Positions 11,049-24,510 of a DNA stretch of 64,000 bases are shown piece by piece. The notes below the pieces were generated by a model, which saw nothing but the letters and a program-made list of their open reading frames with translations, had not been told where the DNA came from and did not search any database. Location: the NCBI GenBank assembly GCA_024399275.1, contig JAKSHS010000004.1, positions 1 through 64,000 of the forward strand, in the 5' to 3' direction. The position numbers were made by a program, and so were the translations under genes. This DNA comes from an archaeon. Lineage in GTDB: Archaea; Thermoplasmatota; Thermoplasmata; Methanomassiliicoccales; Methanomethylophilaceae. Numbering within the stretch: position 1 is the first letter of the stretch; the number at the start of each line of letters is the position of its first letter.

Positions 11049-12692
11049 ATGGCATCGTACGGAATAGCTTTAGATCTCGGCACAAGTGGTTTTAGGTCAC
11101 ATTTAGTTGACCTTAATAAAAACGGAAAAATCCTCGATACCATAGTAACGTCAAGACACCCTCTCCCCGGGGCAAACATAATGGATCACATGCATTTCTG
11201 GATGAAATCTGGGCGAGATATAACACATAAAATAATCATACAAACAATTCACGACCTAATGAGCCTGTACGGAGAGAGCAGGCTCTCAGATGTTAAAAAA
11301 CTCTCCGTCTGCGGGAATCCTATTCAGCTATCTTTATTCGAAGATATCGAAATAAGAGATCTTGCATTCGCCGGGAAAAATAAATTAAAAAAACTTGGTG
11401 TAGTCGCTCCATCAAGAAAGGCACACACAATAACTGCTGGTGACATTGGACTTAATGGAATTAATCCTGAAGTCGAAATACTAATACCGCCAGCAATAAG
11501 ACATGAGATTGGGGCAGATGCACTTGCCATGATAATTAAGTCGAATATGCTTGAAAAGAAGGAAACGTGCATCGTAACAGATTACGGAACCAACGCTGAA
11601 ATGGGCCTTTATTATGATGGGGAGCTTTATTCTGGATCGGCCGCAGCTGGTCCTGCGATGGAGGGACAATCAATTGAGCAAGGTGTTCTTGCCTCTCCTC
11701 ACTCCATCTCTGACCTCAACATAAATGATGACGGAACATGGAGTAATATAGTTCTGAATGACAAGCTTGCTCCCATAGTAACATCGAAGGTCAATCCTAT
11801 AACAGGCGAAACAATCAAAATTCTTGACTATGCCGCGAAAGGAGTCACAGGCACTGGAACAATCTCATGTATTGCAAATGGGTTAAAATCAGGTGTCATT
11901 TTATTACCTCATATTTCGTCACCAGATCATAAAATTCATCTTACAGATAATATCTGTGTGACAGAACATGACGTCACAGAAGCAGGAAAGGCCATGGGTG
12001 CAATACGTGCTGGACATCGAACACTAATGTATGAGATTGGGCTCTCTGACAGTGACATCAAAACGATGTACATGGCAGGCGCCTCTGGAACATATGTGGA
12101 CCCAATCAAAGCACAATATTGCGGAATGATTCCTCGCGTTCTCAAAGAAGTATATCAGCTAGGAAATACATCCCTTATGATGGCTCACGATCTTCTTAAA
12201 TCGGATAAAACACTAGACAAAATGCAGGATATTGCCAACTCCATTTCTGCCAACCATATAATGTTCGCTGGTAACAAAAAATTTGAAGATATGTATGTCC
12301 TAGAGCTAGCATATTGGGAAGAAGGCATGCCATTTGAAATGTACAATAATATGATGATCGAGTCAGGATTCCCACCACTTCCTGATATCACCCCCCCAAA
12401 GCTCTGCAGGAGAATATATAAATCAGATATTCCCGACGTTGGAACAGGACTATACACTCTAGAAAAAGTTGGAATGATAATGAAAGGCGTATTTGATGGG
12501 TGTACAGGTTGCAGAAAATGCCAGCGTGAATGTCCTGAAAGCGCACTTACCGTACGTGATTTAGAAAATGGATCACATGAAATTAACGTCCGCTCTGACT
12601 TATGCCTCGGCACTGCGTGTCAAGCATGTGAATTCCACTGCTCTGAAAAAGTATACAAGTTTACGGATCTTCAAGTGAATTATGGTACTTGA
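11049..12692 (+). CDS. ramA: RamA/RACo-type corrinoid reductive activase (ASKHA ATPase with ferredoxin domain)
   Basis: 547 aa. It uses ATP and reduced Fe-S centres to bring inactive Co(II) corrinoid proteins back to Co(I). The N terminus YGIALDLGTSGFRSH is close to RamA. The ASKHA phosphate motif DYGTNAEMGL (about residues 178-187) and the AAAGPAMEGQ segment follow, then MAGASGTYVDP. The last 70 residues carry two [4Fe-4S] motifs, CTGCRKCQREC and CLGTACQACEFHC. ATG 11049 is chosen because RamA starts here; an upstream ATG at 10983 adds 22 unrelated residues. The 3' end overlaps the DUF1638 gene by 13 nt, tail to tail. Confidence 0.9.
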   Translation: MASYGIALDLGTSGFRSHLVDLNKNGKILDTIVTSRHPLPGANIMDHMHFWMKSGRDITHKIIIQTIHDLMSLYGESRLSDVKKLSVCGNPIQLSLFEDIEIRDLAFAGKNKLKKLGVVAPSRKAHTITAGDIGLNGINPEVEILIPPAIRHEIGADALAMIIKSNMLEKKETCIVTDYGTNAEMGLYYDGELYSGSAAAGPAMEGQSIEQGVLASPHSISDLNINDDGTWSNIVLNDKLAPIVTSKVNPITGETIKILDYAAKGVTGTGTISCIANGLKSGVILLPHISSPDHKIHLTDNICVTEHDVTEAGKAMGAIRAGHRTLMYEIGLSDSDIKTMYMAGASGTYVDPIKAQYCGMIPRVLKEVYQLGNTSLMMAHDLLKSDKTLDKMQDIANSISANHIMFAGNKKFEDMYVLELAYWEEGMPFEMYNNMMIESGFPPLPDITPPKLCRRIYKSDIPDVGTGLYTLEKVGMIMKGVFDGCTGCRKCQRECPESALTVRDLENGSHEINVRSDLCLGTACQACEFHCSEKVYKFTDLQVNYGT

Positions 12693-13318
12693 AGGCAACC
12701 TTTATCCTCCTTGCCCGCAAGCCTTTTTACCTTCGTTATGGCCTCTGTAATAGAACTAGTACCACATGTTCTACAACAAAGTCTGAGTTTAAGCTGCTTA
12801 GCAACATCTTCAGCCTTTTCTTTGTAGTATTTAGTTCTTCCTATGCCATCATCGATAAAAAGACATCTTTGATAGGACTCGAATAACATATCCAGAAAAA
12901 ATTGTGGATCGACTCCCTCGAACGAATCAAGGTGCATTTCTTTAACAAGACCTTTAATACCCTGTTCAGCCCAACCAGGTGTAATAAACCAAGTTCCGCA
13001 ACATATCCTCTTTTCTTTTGTATACTCTTCACTCCCAAGCAACGCATCAATGCAATCCGCTCCTGGAAGCATAACAGCTGGAACTTTTAACTCTTCAACA
13101 ATTCCGTCAAGAGATTGACATATAGCATATCCTAAAAATATGGCATCCAGTCGATGCTCGTACTTATTCACAGTTTCAATGATCTCTCTCCTCATTTCCT
13201 GAGGATACTCGTGCAAGGCGAATTCAAGATATTCTCTCACAACGAAATCAGGGTCGTCCTTTGTTAGATACTCAATTTCTGGCTTTAGAATATCACACGC
13301 GACAATACCCAGCTTCAT
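12680..13318 (-). CDS. DUF1638 family protein
   Basis: 212 aa cytoplasmic protein matching the DUF1638 pattern. It has an N-terminal KLGIVACDIL, a LGYAICQSLDG region, and cysteine-bearing segments (RICCGTWFITPGW, and LRLCCRTCG near residue 187). From my knowledge of methylotrophic methanogens and acetogens, DUF1638 genes often sit beside corrinoid methyltransferase genes; its biochemical role is unsettled. Here it follows the HyuA-like gene on the same strand by 118 bp, so it may be the last gene of that operon or have its own promoter. Convergent with the RamA-like gene. Confidence 0.8.
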   Translation of the reverse strand: MKLGIVACDILKPEIEYLTKDDPDFVVREYLEFALHEYPQEMRREIIETVNKYEHRLDAIFLGYAICQSLDGIVEELKVPAVMLPGADCIDALLGSEEYTKEKRICCGTWFITPGWAEQGIKGLVKEMHLDSFEGVDPQFFLDMLFESYQRCLFIDDGIGRTKYYKEKAEDVAKQLKLRLCCRTCGTSSITEAITKVKRLAGKEDKGCLQVP

Positions 13319-13436: not shown

Positions 13437-15470
13437 TCAAATAAATCCAAATCCTTTGGGCTTTCCCACGGCAACAATCGTTACATTGCACTCAATAAGA
13501 ACAGAACCCTCATACCCCTCATTAAATCCAAACTTCTTATTCTCCACCTTTACTTGAACATCGAACTTATCAGCACCAGCTGTTCTAATGCGCTGTGAAA
13601 CTACCTTTGAACCTTCTTCCTTGGCAAACTCTAACGCATCACTAAATTTATCGAAATCATATCTTCCAAACGACGCAAACAAAGTACATCTTGGATTTTC
13701 TCCCCCTCCCTCTCCCTTCAAAGGGGTAATAGTAATGGCAAGGGATTCAACAACATTTCCTGTAATGGCCCCGACAGCGCTTCCTACATGAGAGTACTCG
13801 GACAAAAGTAACTCTGTACCGAACTTTTCAACCACCTGCGGTAAATATGCCCTCGCTGGAGCACCAATACCAACAACTGGCTTATTAATCTTAACTGTAA
13901 CTCCGTAATCTAGCCCACTTTTCCCAGATATTGCCTTATCCATTATATCCTTACTAATAGCATCCATTCTAGTGTGTCTCGTCTCCTCATAGAACAATTT
14001 CTTCAGAAGTTCTCTTGCAATTTTATCAACGACTGCCTGCTTTGCTAATTTGACAAATTTTTCATTAGAAATTTTGAGTTTGTTAGCAAGATGAGCCACA
14101 CCATAGACAGCTGCCTTCCTATTAAACTGTACATAAGACCCATCTGCATGGAGAATATCTGTGGGCGTTAAACCAATACGCTGAACAATGCCGAATTCCT
14201 CCATCTTAAGAACATTAAACGAGTATGGATGAATTCCAGTTTCATTTCCAACTTCAGTAAGGGACTTTGGCTCAGACCTAATTGCATCAATAAACTCTTT
14301 GTCATACCCCGTTAAAACAATCGAAGGATTATCTTTCAAATTAACGAAGAACTCCATTTCTTGAATTATTTTACCCCCGTCTAGGTACTCCGGAACAAAC
14401 CTAGTGGGAGCGGTAGAAATCACTTCAAGTTTTTCCTCTAAAACTGGCCACCTATCAGCTGCAATGCATAACGGAATCACGCGCAAAGCGGTAAGTTGTA
14501 ACTTGTTGCCATTAACAATAATCCTGCTATCCCCCCCAATACCAGATGTCGAAATTTCTGCAGCCATCACTCTCGTTCTTCTTCCACCAATAATCGCGCC
14601 ATCCTTTTCCAACCTTGGAATACCATTTCTGAGAATGCCTATATCCGTTGTTGTACCACCAATATCCATAACAATAGCGTTCTGTCTTCCAGTCAAAGTT
14701 TTTGCACCGATTAGTGAAGCTGCCGGCCCTGAAAGTATAGTTTCTACAGGCCTCTCTAAAGCTAAACTCTCACTCATTATAGAGCCGTCCCCTTTAACAA
14801 TCATCAGTGGTGCAACTATGCCAGCGTCTTTAGCAACCTTCTTCACCGACATAACGAGTTCTTTGATTATAGGAATAAGACGCGCATTCATGACACACGT
14901 CGTCGTACGCTCGTTAAAACCAAGGTTTGATGATAGCTCATGTCCACACACTACTGGAACATCGAGTATCTCTCTCGTCAAGGAAGCAATGCATTTTTCA
15001 TGTTCAGGATTTCTTACGCTAAAGTAAGATGATATGGCAACACCATCTACCCTGCCTTCCAAAGATTTAAGAAAATTCCTAGCAGCATCTCCATCCAAAG
15101 GTTCCTTTTCCTTCCCAGCAAGTGTATGCCCACCCTTTATGCAAATGCATTTATCAACAGGAACAGACCCATCGAAGTCACGCCCTATTGTTATAAGCGC
15201 TACACGACAACCCTTTCCTTCCACTATTGAATTTGTTGCTAAAGTAGAGGACAGAGACACCATCTTCACATTTCTAAAAAGCTCTCTATCAAAATTTCCT
15301 ATCGACTTTGCAATACCTATAGATAAGTCGTTACCTGTTGTGGGAGATTTAGAACTGCAAACAATCCTCCCGTTACTTAGATCAACGATAACTGCATCGG
15401 TATAAGTTCCTCCGGTATCAAGGCCAAGTCCATAGTTTATCGAGTGGTCATCTATTTCCAACGTATCCAT
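13437..15470 (-). CDS. HyuA-type hydantoinase/oxoprolinase family ASKHA ATPase, no HyuB partner
   Basis: About 677 aa. The ASKHA phosphate-1 loop GLDTGGTYTD (about 16-25), the phosphate-2 loop VMDIGGTTTDIG in the middle and SGIGGDSRI are clear. No HyuB subunit is adjacent, which argues against a simple hydantoinase or 5-oxoprolinase. It lies in one operon with a corrinoid protein, a methyltransferase and a cysteine-rich protein whose 3' end overlaps this start by 23 nt. I infer a methyl-transfer role, possibly reductive activation like RamA, which shares the ASKHA fold. ATG 15470 is preceded directly by AGAGGT; TTG 15461 and an ATG at 15488 are alternatives. Confidence 0.8.
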   Translation of the reverse strand: MDTLEIDDHSINYGLGLDTGGTYTDAVIVDLSNGRIVCSSKSPTTGNDLSIGIAKSIGNFDRELFRNVKMVSLSSTLATNSIVEGKGCRVALITIGRDFDGSVPVDKCICIKGGHTLAGKEKEPLDGDAARNFLKSLEGRVDGVAISSYFSVRNPEHEKCIASLTREILDVPVVCGHELSSNLGFNERTTTCVMNARLIPIIKELVMSVKKVAKDAGIVAPLMIVKGDGSIMSESLALERPVETILSGPAASLIGAKTLTGRQNAIVMDIGGTTTDIGILRNGIPRLEKDGAIIGGRRTRVMAAEISTSGIGGDSRIIVNGNKLQLTALRVIPLCIAADRWPVLEEKLEVISTAPTRFVPEYLDGGKIIQEMEFFVNLKDNPSIVLTGYDKEFIDAIRSEPKSLTEVGNETGIHPYSFNVLKMEEFGIVQRIGLTPTDILHADGSYVQFNRKAAVYGVAHLANKLKISNEKFVKLAKQAVVDKIARELLKKLFYEETRHTRMDAISKDIMDKAISGKSGLDYGVTVKINKPVVGIGAPARAYLPQVVEKFGTELLLSEYSHVGSAVGAITGNVVESLAITITPLKGEGGGENPRCTLFASFGRYDFDKFSDALEFAKEEGSKVVSQRIRTAGADKFDVQVKVENKKFGFNEGYEGSVLIECNVTIVAVGKPKGFGFI

Positions 15471-15738
15471 ACCTCTTTCGGTAATCATCCACAACTTCGC
15501 ACACATGGTCCGCCATTGACTTCTGCATATACTCAGTACCAATGCGCGGAATTTCTTTTATAAAAAATTCAGTATCGCACTTCCCACATCTAACTTTCGG
15601 ACAACTTTTTAATGCCTCGGAACATCCTTGGCAGGCGAACGTTCTTGCATAAAGCAATGAAAATTCAAATCCACAGTACGGGCACCTAAACTTCCTTATT
15701 GACTCTGTTGTCTCGTACTGAAATCCCTTTCTTCTCAA
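15448..15738 (-). CDS. Small 7-cysteine protein (copy 1)
   Basis: 96 aa, not a family that I can name. Seven cysteines follow C-X2-C-X13-C-X2-C-X6-C-X4-C-X2-C (residues 19-54), then a charged helical tail ending RKRYGYV. Spacing fits a zinc ribbon pair or an Fe-S protein; the odd number leaves one site with three Cys or a free thiol. The paralogue at 22671-22973 has identical spacing. The only ordinary start is TTG 15738. The frame stays open upstream to a TAG, and an ACG there follows GGAGGCAGGTG. It is between the UROD methyltransferase and the HyuA-like ATPase, overlapping the latter. Confidence 0.75.
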   Translation of the reverse strand: MRRKGFQYETTESIRKFRCPYCGFEFSLLYARTFACQGCSEALKSCPKVRCGKCDTEFFIKEIPRIGTEYMQKSMADHVCEVVDDYRKRYGYVGNR

Positions 15739-15806
15739 TGCTTCCGCAAATCCGTCCGTCGCACCTGCCTCCGATGAATTTACCCAAAACTAAAGTATGT
15801 TTTTAC

Positions 15807-16895
15807 TTAGAATACACCGTAGGCCTTCGTGGCATCAACCATTGCCTCAATGTTCTCCATCTTTGTTCTACGGTCTGGCGGGACTTCACACCCAGACGCA
15901 ATACAATACTGAGACTTAAGCCCCCTCTTACACAAAGATGTCTTGACCTCTTGGCACAAATCCTTCGTAACCTTTGTAACCGTTTCCGCCGAACCTCTAA
16001 TGAAAACCTGAGGGTCAATTTGTCCAGCTACGAGACAGTGATCCGCATATCCCTTCTCAATGACTTCTGCCGCCGTCGGTGAACCAGGAATCAACGGATA
16101 ATACGCCATCGAATAAATAGCCGGTTTATAGTGAAGGATCTGTGTGTCTAGATGAGGTAAATCAGCACAATTATGAATGCAAACTGCCATGCCTTCACGC
16201 CTAACAATGTCATTCAGTTTGTCAGCGTAATCTCTCTCAAACTCCTTGTACTCTGAATCTCCAAGGCACGAATAATTTGCCCAGAGATAATCCCAGCAAA
16301 GACCATTGATACCAGTCGTTCCGAATGCCTTAATCATCTCTGTATCATACGCGCTAGTCACTTCCAATGCCTTGTGGACAGCAGAAGGCGAGCTGAATAT
16401 ATCCATAAATAGCCTCTCGGCACCTGCAGATTGTGAAAGTGCAAGCAATGGTCCCTCAAGGAATCCAGCTGTAACAACCTGCCCTGCGAGCTCTTTCGCA
16501 AAATACCTTGTGCCTTCTATAAGAACATTAGACCTTCCTTTTCTAATATCAGGAGCCTCAATTTTCTCATAGTCCTCAACATCTTTCACAATGTGCTCAT
16601 CCACGAAGGGCGTATTCTCTTCGTCCATTCTCACATGAGCTCCAAGATCTCCTGCCATCACCGAGAGATCCATAAGTCCGATCGCAAAATCGAAACCAAA
16701 ACGTTTTTGTCCTGCAACAAAAGCTTGCCCAAACAGCTTGGGGTCGCTGACCCATTGCTGATATGTAACATCTCCAGGAAGAAGCTTCCTACAAACACCG
16801 CATGCTATCGGATAAACTGTAAGCCTATCAACTGCCTCACCAGAGAGTGCTGCAAGACCTCTCTCCATATGTGTCATTTTGTCCGTCATCTTCAC
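15807..16895 (-). CDS. UROD-fold corrinoid:CoM methyltransferase, MtsA/MtbA-like
   Basis: 362 aa TIM-barrel of the uroporphyrinogen decarboxylase superfamily. The zinc ligands expected in MtaA/MtbA/MtsA are visible as HNC (IHNCADLPHLD, about residue 243) and a late Cys in ASGCEVPP (about 337). Known members move a methyl group between a corrinoid protein and coenzyme M. The start GTG 16895 overlaps the stop of the corrinoid-protein gene as GTGA, so the pair is co-translated. That resembles the two-protein MtsA/MtsB methylthiol system, or a split CmuA. ATG 16889 is an alternative start. Substrate unknown. Confidence 0.85.
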   Translation of the reverse strand: MKMTDKMTHMERGLAALSGEAVDRLTVYPIACGVCRKLLPGDVTYQQWVSDPKLFGQAFVAGQKRFGFDFAIGLMDLSVMAGDLGAHVRMDEENTPFVDEHIVKDVEDYEKIEAPDIRKGRSNVLIEGTRYFAKELAGQVVTAGFLEGPLLALSQSAGAERLFMDIFSSPSAVHKALEVTSAYDTEMIKAFGTTGINGLCWDYLWANYSCLGDSEYKEFERDYADKLNDIVRREGMAVCIHNCADLPHLDTQILHYKPAIYSMAYYPLIPGSPTAAEVIEKGYADHCLVAGQIDPQVFIRGSAETVTKVTKDLCQEVKTSLCKRGLKSQYCIASGCEVPPDRRTKMENIEAMVDATKAYGVF

Positions 16896-17530
16896 AACAC
16901 TTCCTTAAGCCACGCAACACAATTCTGCGCATTGTTATCCCTGTGATCTGCCCCAATTTCCTCCGCAAATGATGGTGATGTTGGCGGCCCCCCGATACAA
17001 ACTTTGACTTTTGATCTGTTTCCATTTTCTATAAGCCCATCAATAGCTGCCTTCATTCCATCCATCGTAGGCGTCATAAGTGTCGACATCGCAACTGCAC
17101 TGAGCTTATACTTATCAACTGCCTCAACTATTTTTTCAATTGGAGTATCTTTGCCAAGATCGACAACGTCGAATCCTCCAGCTGTAAGCATCGTCTTAAC
17201 AATATTTTTGCCTATATCGTGAACATCTCCCTCCACGACACATACCGACGCCCTTAACATCTTATCCATCTGTGTCTTAGGAATCGCGGGCAGAAGAATA
17301 TCGAGACCTGCGTACATTGTATGTGCTGACATAAGTACCTGCGGCAGGTAAACCTGATGTGCTGCATACCTGTCACCGACTATTGACATCCCGGCGACGA
17401 GGCCATCATTTATCGCATCAAGTGCTGGCATTCCTACATCCAAAGCCTCTTTAGCTGCAGCTCTGGACGCATCAACTTTACCGTTTACGACGGCATCGCT
17501 CAGTTTTCTGAGAATCTCATCATTCGTCAT
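16892..17530 (-). CDS. Methyltransferase cognate corrinoid protein
   Basis: 212 aa. An N-terminal four-helix cap (about 1-90, with GLVAGMSIVGD) is followed by a Rossmann-like B12 domain. The cobalt-ligating loop is EGDVHDIGKN (about 104-113), with STL and the glycine pair CIGGPPT later, the DXHXXG...SXL...GG set. It belongs to the MtmC/MtbC/MttC/MtsB group and carries the methyl group as methyl-Co(III). ATG 17530 follows GGGGAGG by 5 nt. First gene of the operon, with a TATA box just upstream. No MtmB, MtbB, MttB or MtaB gene is adjacent to name its substrate. Confidence 0.9.
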   Translation of the reverse strand: MTNDEILRKLSDAVVNGKVDASRAAAKEALDVGMPALDAINDGLVAGMSIVGDRYAAHQVYLPQVLMSAHTMYAGLDILLPAIPKTQMDKMLRASVCVVEGDVHDIGKNIVKTMLTAGGFDVVDLGKDTPIEKIVEAVDKYKLSAVAMSTLMTPTMDGMKAAIDGLIENGNRSKVKVCIGGPPTSPSFAEEIGADHRDNNAQNCVAWLKEVL

Positions 17531-19443: not shown

Positions 19444-19556
19444 AACATCGATATTTCATTCATAAATTACTGATATATGCAAAATTGTTCCATCGTCCCC
19501 CTTAAAACACCCAGCTATGAAATAATGTTACCATTTTGACTAAACAACGTATATAT

Positions 19557-20711
19557 ATGGATAGAATCGTAATACCCGCAGGGATTGTTATGGGTTACGA
19601 AGAGTTATTCCCTACCAACGACCTCAAAGGCTGGCATGCAAATGCGGCTAAAAGGTTCGCAAGCCCCTTTGTGGACAGTTACCACGACAGGATTGACGTA
19701 GATCCTATCATCCTGTCAAACGCTGCCGTACATTGCGGATTCACAATCAGGGACTTTTACGAGAAACCAGAACTTGGAATTCATACGGTCGGATATATAT
19801 CAGAATTGTTTGACCTTCTGCCAGTCACTCACTGGTTCTTCTCACTGCCATGGCTCAGAGACCTTGGCGTGACGTTAGAGTACAAGGATACACTTCCTCC
19901 AGTCTCGACTGGACCAATTATCAGTGAGCCTGAAGAAGTCGACAAACTTGAGCCAATATCTAAAGAGAAGCTTGCGGGCGGAAGCACTGATACGCTATTC
20001 CACAACTTATACGGCTATGTCCAAAAGAACATTCCTCACACCCTCGTACCGATTTCGTATGGTTTCGACCTTTGTGGTGCGGGAGCTGAAATCTGTGGTG
20101 TTGAGAACTTCATAATGTGGACATTCACAGAGCCTGAGATTGCTCATAAACTTCAAGATGTCTACGTTGAAACATCGATCAACGGAGCGGACCTTCTGTC
20201 TGACACCTACGGTATGGCTATGCTAATAGTTGGATCTGTCCTTGCCAACAACGATATCTTTAGCGACGAACAGGTCGAAGAGTTCTCAGCAAAAGTCATG
20301 CACCACTACGTAGATCAATGCTTCAGGAAAGGAGCGGGGCCACAGGTATTCTATCATCTCTGCGGTAACCACGAAACAGACTACAAAGTTTTCAAGAAGA
20401 ACCTATTGTGGTCACCATTTAACGTCCTACACATTGGGTATATGGGTCAAAAAGAATTCCCAACCGAGATTTTGAAGCAGGAATTCCAAGATGTGACGAC
20501 GATTATGGGTTCCGTTGACACAAAACTCATGATCCAAGCCAACCCCAAGAAAGTCTACGATAGGGCAAAGGAATCTCTTCTTGCCGGCCGTGACGCAAAG
20601 AAAGGTTACATTCTCGGTACAAGCTGTGAGACACCTCCGTACACCATTCCGGGACAACTTCTCGCACTCACGAGAGCAGCTAGAGACTTCGGTACATACG
20701 GAACGTGGTGA
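19557..20711 (+). CDS. UROD-fold methyltransferase, second copy
   Basis: About 384 aa of the uroporphyrinogen decarboxylase/MtaA superfamily. The zinc motif is FYHLCGNHETD (about 272-282), HXC plus a nearby His, and a C-terminal Cys in GTSCETPPYTIP (about 356-367). It differs strongly from the copy at 15807 and has no corrinoid protein beside it. It could use the corrinoid protein at 16892 as a substrate-side (MT1-like) enzyme, or serve another one. ATG 19557 is preferred; TTG 19536 would add seven residues, and neither has a good ribosome site. The stop leads straight into the Shine-Dalgarno of the next gene. Confidence 0.8.
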   Translation: MDRIVIPAGIVMGYEELFPTNDLKGWHANAAKRFASPFVDSYHDRIDVDPIILSNAAVHCGFTIRDFYEKPELGIHTVGYISELFDLLPVTHWFFSLPWLRDLGVTLEYKDTLPPVSTGPIISEPEEVDKLEPISKEKLAGGSTDTLFHNLYGYVQKNIPHTLVPISYGFDLCGAGAEICGVENFIMWTFTEPEIAHKLQDVYVETSINGADLLSDTYGMAMLIVGSVLANNDIFSDEQVEEFSAKVMHHYVDQCFRKGAGPQVFYHLCGNHETDYKVFKKNLLWSPFNVLHIGYMGQKEFPTEILKQEFQDVTTIMGSVDTKLMIQANPKKVYDRAKESLLAGRDAKKGYILGTSCETPPYTIPGQLLALTRAARDFGTYGTW

Positions 20712-20721
20712 GGTGACAAAC

Positions 20722-21159
20722 ATGGCAGTAATTTCAGAGGCAGCGAAAAGTATCCTCGAAAAGAGAGGTTTAAAAGAAGCAGACGTTCTCTCAGTCGTCA
20801 ACGAGTGCGGCGATGACAAGATCTTCAACAAGGAAAAAGGGATATACATTGCCAGAAAAGAGATAGGGGAACTTACGGTCTACGCCGTCTTCGATGAAAG
20901 TGGTACAGTTCAAACGGCGTACAGTCACAAGATGAAGATCTTGGATATTGTCCTCGAAGGAGAGGAGGACTCTGGTTGGGTGTACTGCAAGAATGGTGCT
21001 ACTGTAAAAAGTGGACACACCAATCTCACATACCTTGGCGCGACTAGGTCTGGACCATCGCTAACAGAACCAATATCTGGACAGTCTTGGTTTGAGGAAT
21101 ATCTCGCGACTGGAGCGCTTACAACGGCAGAGGGACTTTTCCAACAAAAGAGGGCATAA
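20722..21159 (+). CDS. Unknown protein translationally coupled to the UROD methyltransferase
   Basis: 145 aa, no family recognised. GAGGTGA (20710-20716) overlaps the methyltransferase stop and stands 5 nt before ATG 20722, so the two are made together. The frame also runs upstream inside the methyltransferase gene, but that part is shadow. It has a helical first 30 residues, a beta-rich middle (YIARKEIGELTVYAVFD, ILDIVLEGEE, SGWVYCKNG), and a C-terminal TSGQSWF-like loop with helices. One Cys near 28 and one near 88. A partner or accessory subunit of the methyltransferase is inferred from coupling alone. Confidence 0.7.
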   Translation: MAVISEAAKSILEKRGLKEADVLSVVNECGDDKIFNKEKGIYIARKEIGELTVYAVFDESGTVQTAYSHKMKILDIVLEGEEDSGWVYCKNGATVKSGHTNLTYLGATRSGPSLTEPISGQSWFEEYLATGALTTAEGLFQQKRA

Positions 21160-21226
21160 ATTTACCTGTCGTAAGTTTTAAACCTCTTATCCTTATCTTT
21201 TTTCCATAAAACGCGCCTGGAATGTT

Positions 21227-21247
21227 AGGCGAATGAATTATTCACCT
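21227..21247 (+). promoter_or_regulatory. Inverted repeat before the radical SAM gene
   Basis: AGGCGAAT (21227-21234) and ATTCACCT (21240-21247) pair with one mismatch around a 5-nt loop, 18 nt before ATG 21265. It could be an operator or a leader hairpin controlling the radical SAM gene. TTTTAAACC near 21176 may be its TATA box. Confidence 0.3.
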
Positions 21248-21264
21248 CCTATTGTGTGATAGCA

Positions 21265-22626
21265 ATGATCGAGAAAATTGGGGAGACATTTGCACTCTGT
21301 CCGAAATGTTTGAAAACTATTAGAGCAAAAAAAATCGCCGAAGATGACACAGTATATCTTGTGAAGACATGCCCTGACCACGGAACATGGAAAGTAAAGA
21401 TATGGAAAGGTGTCAAACATTACAAGAATTTATATGACTTCGCTGCAACCCCGAAGATTCCAGAAAAATTCGCTGTTTCTTCTGTCAAAGATTGTCCTCA
21501 TGATTGCGGATTGTGTAACCAACACCTTCAGCACTCATGTGTGAATGTCATAGAAGTCACAAACCGTTGCAATCTAAACTGTCCAATATGTTTTGCATCT
21601 TCTGAAACATGCGGGTACGATTTTCACCCTGACATAGAAACGATTCGAGGAATGTTTCAAACTGTTGTTGATTTCGTGAATAGTCCTAGATGCGTCCAGA
21701 TATCTGGCGGTGAACCTACAATTAGAGACGACCTTCCAGAAATTGTGAAAATGGCGAAGAGCATGGGTATAGAACACATCGAAATTAATACCAATGCAAT
21801 ACGTATCGCGAAGGACTTAAACTACCTCCGAAAGCTGAAAGAAGCTGGTGTCGACGATTTTTACATGCAATTTGACGGTATAAACGACGCTATTTACCTT
21901 AAAACTCGCGGCAGATCACTGCTTGCATTAAAAGAGCAGGCAATTCAAAACTGTAAAGATATAGGCATCGGAATAACTCTCGTTGTGACAGTTTCTCCAG
22001 ACATTAATCTTGACCATGTTGGTGAAATCATTAGATACGCAGCATCAAAAACACCCATCGTTAAAGGTGTTCATTTTCAGCCCATATCATACTTTGGACG
22101 TTATCCCATCGAACCAACAGACAAAAATCGCATCACTCTACCTGAACTAACGGATGCTATCGAATCACAAACAGATGGTATGTTAAAGGCAGATAATTTT
22201 CTTCCAACATCATGTTCCAATATTCATTGTGACATAAAGTCTCTTTCAATTGTACTACCTGACGGATCATTATTTCCACTAACAACCATGGCACTAGGGC
22301 CACCCAAGAAAACTGACAATATTGCTGATAAAACCAGAACAGAAATATCTCAATTTTGGAGATTTATCGAATGCTCTATGGATGGGGGAGACATGAAAGA
22401 ATCCAATGACAACTCGTGGAAAACATTTATCAGTCGAGCAAAGACACACTACCTTACAGTATCAGCGATGGCATTCCAGGATGCATGGACTGGAGAGGTA
22501 GAAAGATGGAAACATTGCTGCATCCACGTTGTCACCCCTGACAAGAGACTAATTCCATTCTGCCTATTCAACACGACCGCAGAGAACGGAGCTACACTAT
22601 ATAGAGACAGAATTTTCCACCTATAA
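21265..22626 (+). CDS. Radical SAM protein of the MJ0619/Tes-like family
   Basis: 453 aa. An N-terminal CPKC and HGTW motif form a rubredoxin-like knuckle (about 12-40), then CPHDCGLC (about 77-84). The radical SAM cluster motif CNLNCPIC (CX3CX2C, about 105-112) and SGGEPTIRDDLPEI for SAM follow. Late cysteines (SCSNIHC, HCCIHVV, RLIPFC) could bind further clusters. This architecture resembles archaeal MJ0619 proteins, one branch of which is tetraether synthase; the chemistry here is unknown. ATG 21265 has GTGAT 4 nt upstream. Placement between methyltransferase and 7-Cys/ligase genes suggests a role in the methyl-compound pathway. Confidence 0.8.
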   Translation: MIEKIGETFALCPKCLKTIRAKKIAEDDTVYLVKTCPDHGTWKVKIWKGVKHYKNLYDFAATPKIPEKFAVSSVKDCPHDCGLCNQHLQHSCVNVIEVTNRCNLNCPICFASSETCGYDFHPDIETIRGMFQTVVDFVNSPRCVQISGGEPTIRDDLPEIVKMAKSMGIEHIEINTNAIRIAKDLNYLRKLKEAGVDDFYMQFDGINDAIYLKTRGRSLLALKEQAIQNCKDIGIGITLVVTVSPDINLDHVGEIIRYAASKTPIVKGVHFQPISYFGRYPIEPTDKNRITLPELTDAIESQTDGMLKADNFLPTSCSNIHCDIKSLSIVLPDGSLFPLTTMALGPPKKTDNIADKTRTEISQFWRFIECSMDGGDMKESNDNSWKTFISRAKTHYLTVSAMAFQDAWTGEVERWKHCCIHVVTPDKRLIPFCLFNTTAENGATLYRDRIFHL

Positions 22627-22670
22627 GTTGGAGTATGTAACACATACTTCTTAGAAGCACTTACAATTGT

Positions 22671-22973
22671 CTACCTTCTGTAGTATCCAAAAGACTTGTG
22701 GTAACTATCCACAACACCGTTCATATATCCCGATATGAACTTCTCTTTCTCCTTTGTATTGACTATAAAGCCATTAATTGGAAATTCTGCATCGCAATGG
22801 ACACACCTCACAAGTCTGCAATGTTTATTCGCCTGTGGGCATGCTCTACAAGCAATTGCCCTGGACTGGAATAAGCTAAACTCCTTTCCACACCTAGGGC
22901 ATTTGAATCTATGAGTAGACGAAAGTAACTGTGGAGTAACTCCCGCTCTCGCCATCTCTGGTGTCAAAGTCAC
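22671..22973 (-). CDS. Small 7-cysteine protein (copy 2)
   Basis: About 100 aa and a clear paralogue of the protein at 15448. It has FKCPRCGKEFSLF, the same C-X2-C-X13-C-X2-C-X6-C-X4-C-X2-C spacing (residues 25-60), and a tail ending in SFGYYRR against KRYGYV. GTG 22973 is preferred because GGGGAG stands 4 nt upstream; GTG 22985 or ATG 22955 are possible. It is tail-to-tail with the radical SAM gene and divergent from the PaaK-type ligase. Zinc or Fe-S binding inferred; family not named. Confidence 0.7.
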   Translation of the reverse strand: MTLTPEMARAGVTPQLLSSTHRFKCPRCGKEFSLFQSRAIACRACPQANKHCRLVRCVHCDAEFPINGFIVNTKEKEKFISGYMNGVVDSYHKSFGYYRR

Positions 22974-23058
22974 TAAACTCCCCACACACTCATAAATGTT
23001 CGACTATATAGCAAATTCCCAACCCAACATTATTATTATTTCAGATAGAATCACACAT

Positions 23059-24510
23059 ATGAGCATATGGGAAGCGATGAAGATTTTCATTATTCGGCGT
23101 CGGCTCTTATCGAATATGATTCCCAAGGAATGTAAACATCCACTGGAAGAATGGATGGCCATTAAAGCCAGAATGACATTTAAAAAAAATCGGGATTTGA
23201 GAGAACGCATAGGAAAAAACAAGCTCGAAGAAGTTACAAGAAAGGATTTTGATGAATATCAACTATTTTGTGTTAGAAGGCAGATGAAGTATGCTGAGGA
23301 AAACTCCCCTTACTACAGAGACAAATTTAAGAACGCCGGCGTTAAACCCGAAGACATTAATACATGGGACGATCTTCAAAAAATCCCATTTACCGAACCA
23401 TCTGATCTAGCAAAGAACTCAATGTACTTCTATGCAGTCTCTAGAACAAAACTCGCTAGAGAATTTACTACAACTGGAACAACCGGCCACCGAAAATTTA
23501 TAGGATACACCACAAACGATTTAGTCTCCAAAATCGACATAGTGGCTTCAGCACTGAAAAATATTGGCATGACCAGCGAAGACTCACTTCATATAATGTT
23601 CCCTCTTGTCACCGCTTGGGATCCTAGCATAATTATGGCAGGAGCCTGCAAAATTTTAGGTTACAAATCATCAATATGCTCTGATCCAGATGTCGACAAG
23701 CAACTTACAACTATAAAAGAAAACAAGACCACTTACATTATTGGAGTACCGTCATTCATCTACCGCATTACAACTTTATTAGAAAAAACTACTCCCCTAA
23801 AAAATCTTGGAATAAAAAAAGTAATATCCACTTCAGAACCCCTCCCAGAAAGCCTAAGACACTCATTGGAAGAAACATGGGGATGCAAAGTTCTTGATGT
23901 CTGGGGAATAACCGAATTCGGGTTAGCTTGTGCGGTTGAATGCGATTCTCAGGATGGGCTTCATACTGATGAAGCAAACATGCTCTTTGAAATAATTGAT
24001 CCAGAAACTGGAAAACATGTTCCGGATGGTACATTTGGAGAATTAGTGATAACGTCCCTCCACGCCGAATGTTCAGTGCTTATAAGATACCGTACACGTG
24101 ACATCGCTGCAATGATTGCCCCCCCATGCAAATGCGGAGCCCATTTCAATAGAAGATTAGCTAAACCAAAGGGTCGAATGGATCTACAATCCAAAATTGG
24201 AATGGGTCATAAAATATATCCGATTCTATTCGACGAGGTAATATTCTCAAACAAATCAATTGTTGACTATCGGGTGAAAATTACAAAGGAAGGATATAAA
24301 GATACTCTTACATTCGAGTTAGAGACAGACACTCAAACAGATGTTCTCAAAGAAAAGATTATTGATGATGTATCTCGCATTACAGAAATTAAACAAGGGT
24401 TAGAAGAGGACCTCATCAACAAACCAAGAGTAACATTTGTCGACCCAGGCACAATGAAATACACGGTGAAAGCGAAGAAAATATTAGATTGTCGGGAAAA
24501 TTTCGAATAA
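23059..24510 (+). CDS. PaaK-type phenylacetate-CoA ligase family protein
   Basis: About 483 aa AMP-forming ligase. After a helical N-terminal region comes YAEENSPYYRDKF, a PaaK hallmark. The P-loop-like TTTGTTGHRKF, the central DVWGITEFG motif and RYRTRDIA follow, and a CKCG motif lies before the C-terminal lid domain with its PGTMKYTVKAKK end. Known members activate aryl acids as CoA thioesters via an acyl adenylate. The substrate is unknown here. Start ATG 23059 is inferred because CTATATAG at about 23003-23010 looks like its TATA box; ATG 22996 would lie upstream of that box. Confidence 0.8.
   Translation: MSIWEAMKIFIIRRRLLSNMIPKECKHPLEEWMAIKARMTFKKNRDLRERIGKNKLEEVTRKDFDEYQLFCVRRQMKYAEENSPYYRDKFKNAGVKPEDINTWDDLQKIPFTEPSDLAKNSMYFYAVSRTKLAREFTTTGTTGHRKFIGYTTNDLVSKIDIVASALKNIGMTSEDSLHIMFPLVTAWDPSIIMAGACKILGYKSSICSDPDVDKQLTTIKENKTTYIIGVPSFIYRITTLLEKTTPLKNLGIKKVISTSEPLPESLRHSLEETWGCKVLDVWGITEFGLACAVECDSQDGLHTDEANMLFEIIDPETGKHVPDGTFGELVITSLHAECSVLIRYRTRDIAAMIAPPCKCGAHFNRRLAKPKGRMDLQSKIGMGHKIYPILFDEVIFSNKSIVDYRVKITKEGYKDTLTFELETDTQTDVLKEKIIDDVSRITEIKQGLEEDLINKPRVTFVDPGTMKYTVKAKKILDCRENFE

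Follow-up and report, generated by a model that had tools for sequence, protein, structure and literature searches.

We analysed a 64,000-nucleotide stretch of archaeal DNA, hereafter the window (positions 1 to 64,000 of contig JAKSHS010000004.1, assembly GCA_024399275.1; Methanomassiliicoccales, Methanomethylophilaceae). On its minus strand, a corrinoid (B12-binding) protein resembling MtbC/MtgC (CorrP), a UROD-superfamily methyltransferase (URODa), a small cysteine protein (ZnR1) and a HyuA-type ATPase form one operon, as the initial annotation had claimed, and all four genes were found where it had placed them. The GTGA overlap between CorrP and URODa (16892-16895) is present provided that GTG is the true start, and so is the 23-nt overlap between ZnR1 and HyuA (15448-15470), provided that the first ATG is the true start. 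The operon is longer than first noted, since a DUF1638 gene follows 118 bp past HyuA on the same strand. The gene for the corrinoid reductive activase RamA is convergent with the operon and ends against DUF1638 from the opposite strand; its open reading frame was listed from TTG 10983, while the first ATG fitting the family start lies at 11049. The features on which this work draws are the following:

11049..12692, plus strand: RamA corrinoid reductive activase (TIGR04270, 703 bits, cut-off 500)
12680..13318, minus strand: DUF1638 protein, end of the operon (PF07796, 4.7e-31)
13437..15470, minus strand: HyuA-type ASKHA-fold ATPase (PF05378 and the N-terminal half of PF01968)
15448..15738, minus strand: ZnR1, small Cys protein (alignment of 61 relatives, predicted structure)
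15807..16895, minus strand: URODa, UROD-superfamily methyltransferase (PF01208, 2.8e-42)
16892..17530, minus strand: CorrP, corrinoid (B12-binding) protein, MtbC/MtgC-like (PF02607, 5.9e-22; PF02310, 1.2e-22)
19536..20711, plus strand: URODb, second UROD-superfamily protein, part of the ZnR2 module (PF01208, 8.7e-24)
22671..22985, minus strand: ZnR2, paralogue of ZnR1 with the same seven Cys

The corrinoid protein and its methyltransferase

CorrP carries the DxHxxG motif in the form DVHDIG and scores 201.3 bits against TIGR02370, under the cut-off of 215.3. URODa is MtaA/CmuA-like, yet far under the cut-off (84.9 versus 235.4), and has MtaA (4ay7) as its sole PDB match. It possesses a putative zinc site, His241-x-Cys243 ... 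Cys336, of which the histidine and both cysteines are invariant in 31 out of 31 orthologues. According to a rule described for UROD methyltransferases, a His-Cys-Cys zinc site goes together with methyl chemistry on sulfur or selenium (PMC10418091), which for URODa favours S- or Se-methyl chemistry. The same paper defines type 1 mlp gene clusters as at least two Mlps, a corrinoid protein and a co-directional Ram gene. Our operon shares with these clusters, for which S/Se-methyl chemistry was proposed, the combination of a His-Cys-Cys UROD methyltransferase and a corrinoid protein, but it has one UROD and a convergent RamA.

Conservation of the operon and its accessory genes

Conservation was surveyed in the genomes of 147 species of the order. 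The usual block in relatives runs CorrP, URODa, a CobW-like GTPase, a small acidic protein, ZnR1 and HyuA, optionally followed by DUF1638, and it was found in several families of the Methanomassiliicoccales. As this gene order is kept across genera and families, the block is not a product of chance. In the loci of one family (f6; e.g. L068-L071), HyuA is convergent to the remaining block. DUF1638 follows HyuA in four further loci (L065, L103, L106 and L107); in Phaeobacter, the DUF1638 family shows co-fitness with a RamA-like protein, providing a genetic link to B12 reactivation (PMC5764234). RamA itself is present in 146 of the 147 genomes.

A CobW-like GTPase of the operon type lies within 6 kb of ZnR1 in 54 out of 62 cases and within 1.2 kb in 44 out of 62. 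It resembles the CobW-related selenoprotein NF041053 (E about 1e-35), below the curated cut-off. The operon in the window is without a CobW-like gene and its own genome has only distant ones (36% and below); a relative of the same genus (L101) carries such a gene immediately after HyuA. The small acidic protein has a His/Asp-rich N-terminus in L065. For a second type of CobW-like G3E GTPase, at least 13 of 38 cases were no more than 1 kb away from RamA (e.g. L243, L253, L072), and the CobW-like genes beside RamA are often accompanied by a small partner gene, as if the GTPase went with the known corrinoid activase RamA.

The HyuA-type ATPase

The ASKHA fold that had been attributed to the HyuA-type protein is borne out by the predicted structure, as the model (pLDDT 91.4) matches the entire HyuA fold (E 1e-23 to 5e-28) and the phosphate motifs DTGGTYTD and DIGGTTTD as well as the GIGAP motif are intact. 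The best PDB matches of the model are N-methylhydantoinase, acetone carboxylase, acetophenone carboxylase and caprolactamase, with RACo far down the list (TM about 0.2), and the sequence match to such HyuA-type enzymes is confined to about the first 325 residues. Like RamA, RACo and RACE, the protein is predicted to have an ATP-binding ASKHA fold and is encoded with corrinoid methyltransferases. Unlike them, it belongs to the HyuA subclass and has no Fe-S domain, no match to the RACo/RamA families PF14574 and TIGR04270 and no invariant cysteine in alignments of 22 and 51 sequences. With the HyuA proteins of N-methylhydantoinase, 5-oxoprolinase and the acetone and acetophenone carboxylases it has the full-length fold and the N-terminal sequence in common; it differs from these in standing in a corrinoid operon without a HyuB or carboxylase partner.

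The initial annotation had reported that no HyuB is adjacent, and the case proved stronger than that: there is none in the window's own genome (79% complete), and HyuB (PF02538) occurs in 1 of the 147 genomes of the order, in a search that works, being positive in 6 of 14 control genomes. Using an alignment as query (a single-sequence query of the contigs gave none), we retrieved 80 relatives of HyuA, 48 of them bacterial according to their record titles, and HyuB was found within 10 kb of none of the 80. Loci of at least 9 kb were scored for a nearby corrinoid-type gene, counted as a corrinoid protein, MttB, UROD, a methyltransferase-II-like protein or RACE, and such a gene was found in 21 out of 28 archaeal and 23 out of 39 bacterial loci. 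The other 16 bacterial loci imply that part of the family may act otherwise. Among loci without a counted gene, L153 has a B12-binding neighbour and L161 a weak match to the MetH activation domain. Within the Bacillota the pattern CorrP-MttB-HyuA-methyltransferase is recurrent, and in some bacteria RACE directly adjoins the HyuA relative in the order RACE-HyuA-DUF1638 (L129, L133, L173). In the tree, most HyuAs of the order form one clade, adjoined by a bacterial group that consists mainly of Bacillota; the ZnR1-linked HyuAs are clustered (9 changes needed versus 27 in shuffles) and do not form one clade. The absence of HyuB (146 of 147 genomes, 80 loci), combined with the bacterial CorrP-MttB-HyuA-methyltransferase operons, makes a HyuB-free, corrinoid-linked role for the HyuA-type ATPase well supported, and the link of this family to corrinoid methyltransferases in archaea as well as bacteria is a part of the original reading that holds.

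Some genomes contain additional members of the family. One of them, G125, has a HyuA paralogue two genes past RamA and a PylC-like ATP-grasp gene in the same stretch (L097:4850-11553). Methanolobus genomes encode two or three relatives of HyuA, in loci (L132, L145, L146) that also hold MttB, corrinoid genes or both. The open-access literature that we searched contained no paper on this operon or assigning HyuA a corrinoid role, and a paper on methyltransferase expression in M. luminyensis does not mention the operon. A 'HydA' hydantoinase is drawn, with no role given, in the glycine betaine clusters of strain DCMF, Sporomusa ovata and others (PMC9768040). Going by its drawn label, it resembles our HyuA as a HyuA-type gene between a corrinoid protein, methyltransferases and RACE, but a Cys protein is not mentioned for those clusters.

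The cysteine proteins ZnR1 and ZnR2

ZnR1 had been described as a protein with seven cysteines. Seven are indeed invariant in 61 distinct relatives (C19, C22, C36, C39, C46, C51 and C54), but the protein has eight in total, of which C80 is not conserved. The alignment gives the spacing C-x2-C-x13-C-x2-C-x6-C-x4-C-x2-C for both ZnR1 and ZnR2. As called, the N-terminus of ZnR1 is shorter than that of its orthologues. The frame upstream (15739-15786, minus strand) reads ...ATDGFAEAL, comparable to MADGFYEAM in the orthologues, and contains no ATG, GTG or TTG codon. The true N-terminus probably lies about eight residues farther upstream, in which case the missing start would reflect either an altered start codon or a sequence error.

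In its predicted structure (pLDDT 79), ZnR1 consists of two strand-CxxC-strand units and a long helix. Sequence and fold searches only returned weak matches, mostly to zinc ribbons and other zinc-binding proteins, and ZnR1 is a probable double zinc ribbon. Foldseek with the ZnR1 model gave nothing significant (best E 0.73). The top PDB matches are summed short CPxCGxxFS stretches against artificial zinc fingers and were given no further meaning, and similarity did not bear out an Fe-S reading, the weak matches being mostly to zinc-binding proteins. The dual CXXC motif small (seleno)protein NF041197 resembles ZnR1 (E 0.03) and ZnR2 (E 0.007), both below the curated cut-off; ZnR1 has no Sec codon, and this relationship was set aside and kept as a lead.

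Throughout the order ZnR1 and HyuA are neighbours, another part of the earlier reading that stands. Of the 81 copies of ZnR1, 72 have a HyuA no farther than 6.5 kb away and 46 adjoin HyuA on the same strand, often only a few bases apart. For most of the copies without a nearby HyuA, the contig carries no HyuA. None of the 69 copies of ZnR2 adjoins HyuA, and in a control using the same search as for the ZnR1 loci, a corrinoid protein was found in none of the 11 ZnR2 loci examined (L084-L094). ZnR2 is part of a second conserved module (window positions 19536-24510) that comprises URODb, a 148-aa protein, TrsS, which is a radical SAM protein scoring above the NCBIfam cut-off, ZnR2 and a DVU_1553-like CoA ligase; the same set was present in 10 of the 11 relatives' loci examined (L084, L085, L087-L094).

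In six species of one genus (g20), a seven-Cys ZnR module is fused to the C-terminus of a UROD protein (L225:7058-8443; L248, L249, L250, L251, L252). The fusion is 435-461 aa long in five of the species, and in the sixth a 310-aa frame was read next to a UROD frame of its own; the UROD partner is a paralogue other than URODa. In L225, a radical SAM/SPASM protein is encoded a few genes beyond the fusion. Minimal proteins of 45-66 aa with the same dual CxxC pattern occur in other Thermoplasmatota (L217-L230), next to unrelated genes (FeoB, HypF, TFB, DUF63 and others), and the role of ZnR may therefore be a general one.

Discussion

On balance, we lean towards reading the whole locus as an operon for corrinoid-dependent methyl transfer that brings its own service genes, in which HyuA and DUF1638 work beside RamA, and ZnR1 works on the methyltransferase side. 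The roles that we infer for its proteins, including the exact step of HyuA on the corrinoid protein (activation, repair or loading), are the following. CorrP would carry the methyl group, and URODa, as a zinc (His-Cys-Cys) methyltransferase, would pass it onto, or take it from, a sulfur (or selenium) compound and would probably supply coenzyme M in this way. The stand-alone HyuA would work on CorrP, most likely in ATP-driven activation, repair or maturation, acting with DUF1638 and alongside RamA without replacing it. The double zinc ribbon ZnR1 would partner the methyltransferase/corrinoid side, for instance as a docking aid or in the handling of metal or thiols, and the CobW-like GTPase and small acidic protein that stand beside it in most relatives could supply metal. 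The part concerning HyuA builds on the absence of HyuB, the corrinoid neighbours in archaea and bacteria, the loci with RACE, HyuA and DUF1638, the fold and motifs, and the co-fitness of DUF1638 with a RamA-like protein; the part concerning ZnR builds on the UROD-ZnR fusions, the position of ZnR2 beside URODb, the CobW-like GTPase near ZnR1 and the weak zinc-ribbon matches. The invariant zinc site of URODa and the co-divergence of ZnR1 and of HyuA with CorrP (see below) are also in line with the proposal. Against the proposal stand the bacterial HyuA loci without a corrinoid gene, the constant neighbourhood of ZnR1 and HyuA, the fact that the fusions are not with URODa, the minimal ZnR-like proteins beside unrelated genes, and the missing CobW-like gene in the operon of the window.

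That constant neighbourhood is what would be expected from the mechanism put forward in the initial annotation, a split activator, apart from RamA, in which ZnR1 would supply the corrinoid with electrons from Fe-S and HyuA would power the step by hydrolysing ATP. The seven invariant cysteines of ZnR1 also suit it, as does, though weakly, the ASKHA fold common to HyuA and RACo. Several results speak against such a joint function, to which we now give little credence. ZnR2 occurs without HyuA, no ZnR was found near any of the 48 bacterial HyuA relatives, and ZnR occurs fused to UROD proteins. The cysteine spacing and the weak database matches of ZnR point to zinc ribbons. HyuA, having no conserved cysteine, would share no cluster of the kind found in HgdC-type activators, and RamA is present practically throughout the order. 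When co-divergence was examined in 26 operons, a basis that consists of short proteins and is suggestive only, ZnR1 and HyuA each tracked CorrP (partial r 0.585 and 0.512, respectively) and not each other (-0.004). ZnR1 is better read as a putative metal-binding partner on the methyltransferase side than as an electron carrier.

The nearest solved folds of HyuA are all substrate-phosphorylating HyuA-type enzymes, and the methyltransferase of the operon varies across the family (MttB, UROD), as could be the case for a substrate enzyme. HyuA could accordingly be a catabolic enzyme of the methyl-transfer pathway, phosphorylating one of its carbonyl or amide substrates or products in the manner of acetone carboxylase or N-methylhydantoinase. 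This seems unlikely to us, as those relatives all need HyuB or carboxylase subunits, which are absent here, the constant neighbour across taxa is CorrP with its methyltransferases and no fixed catabolic partner, and DUF1638 and RACE adjoin HyuA in several loci. Rather improbable, too, is an explanation that centres on metal supply, in which the CobW-like GTPase, the small acidic/His-rich protein and ZnR1 would constitute a zinc-loading route for the UROD methyltransferase, with HyuA a passenger retained by operon inertia. The closeness of the GTPase to ZnR1, the composition of the small protein in L065, the invariant zinc site of URODa and the fusions are all in keeping with it. A passenger, however, is not expected to adjoin corrinoid genes in bacteria as well, and the second-type CobW-like genes beside RamA point to corrinoid activation rather than zinc.

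Extending the preferred proposal, of corrinoid service by HyuA and a methyltransferase-side role for ZnR1, beyond this operon, we tentatively suggest that HyuB-free HyuA-fold ATPases may form a hitherto overlooked second class of ATP-driven proteins that service corrinoid methyltransferases, in bacteria as well as archaea, beside RACE/RamA, to which the Methanomassiliicoccales may have added a ZnR/CobW-GTPase set for a zinc methyltransferase. The UROD-ZnR fusions offer a direct way to test what the Cys protein does. If the HyuA family does serve corrinoid proteins, many hydantoinase and oxoprolinase annotations in methylotrophic methanogens and anaerobic bacteria would be misnamed and corrinoid activation would involve a second ATPase besides RACE, which would matter for methylotrophic methanogenesis in the gut and for the breakdown of quaternary amines.
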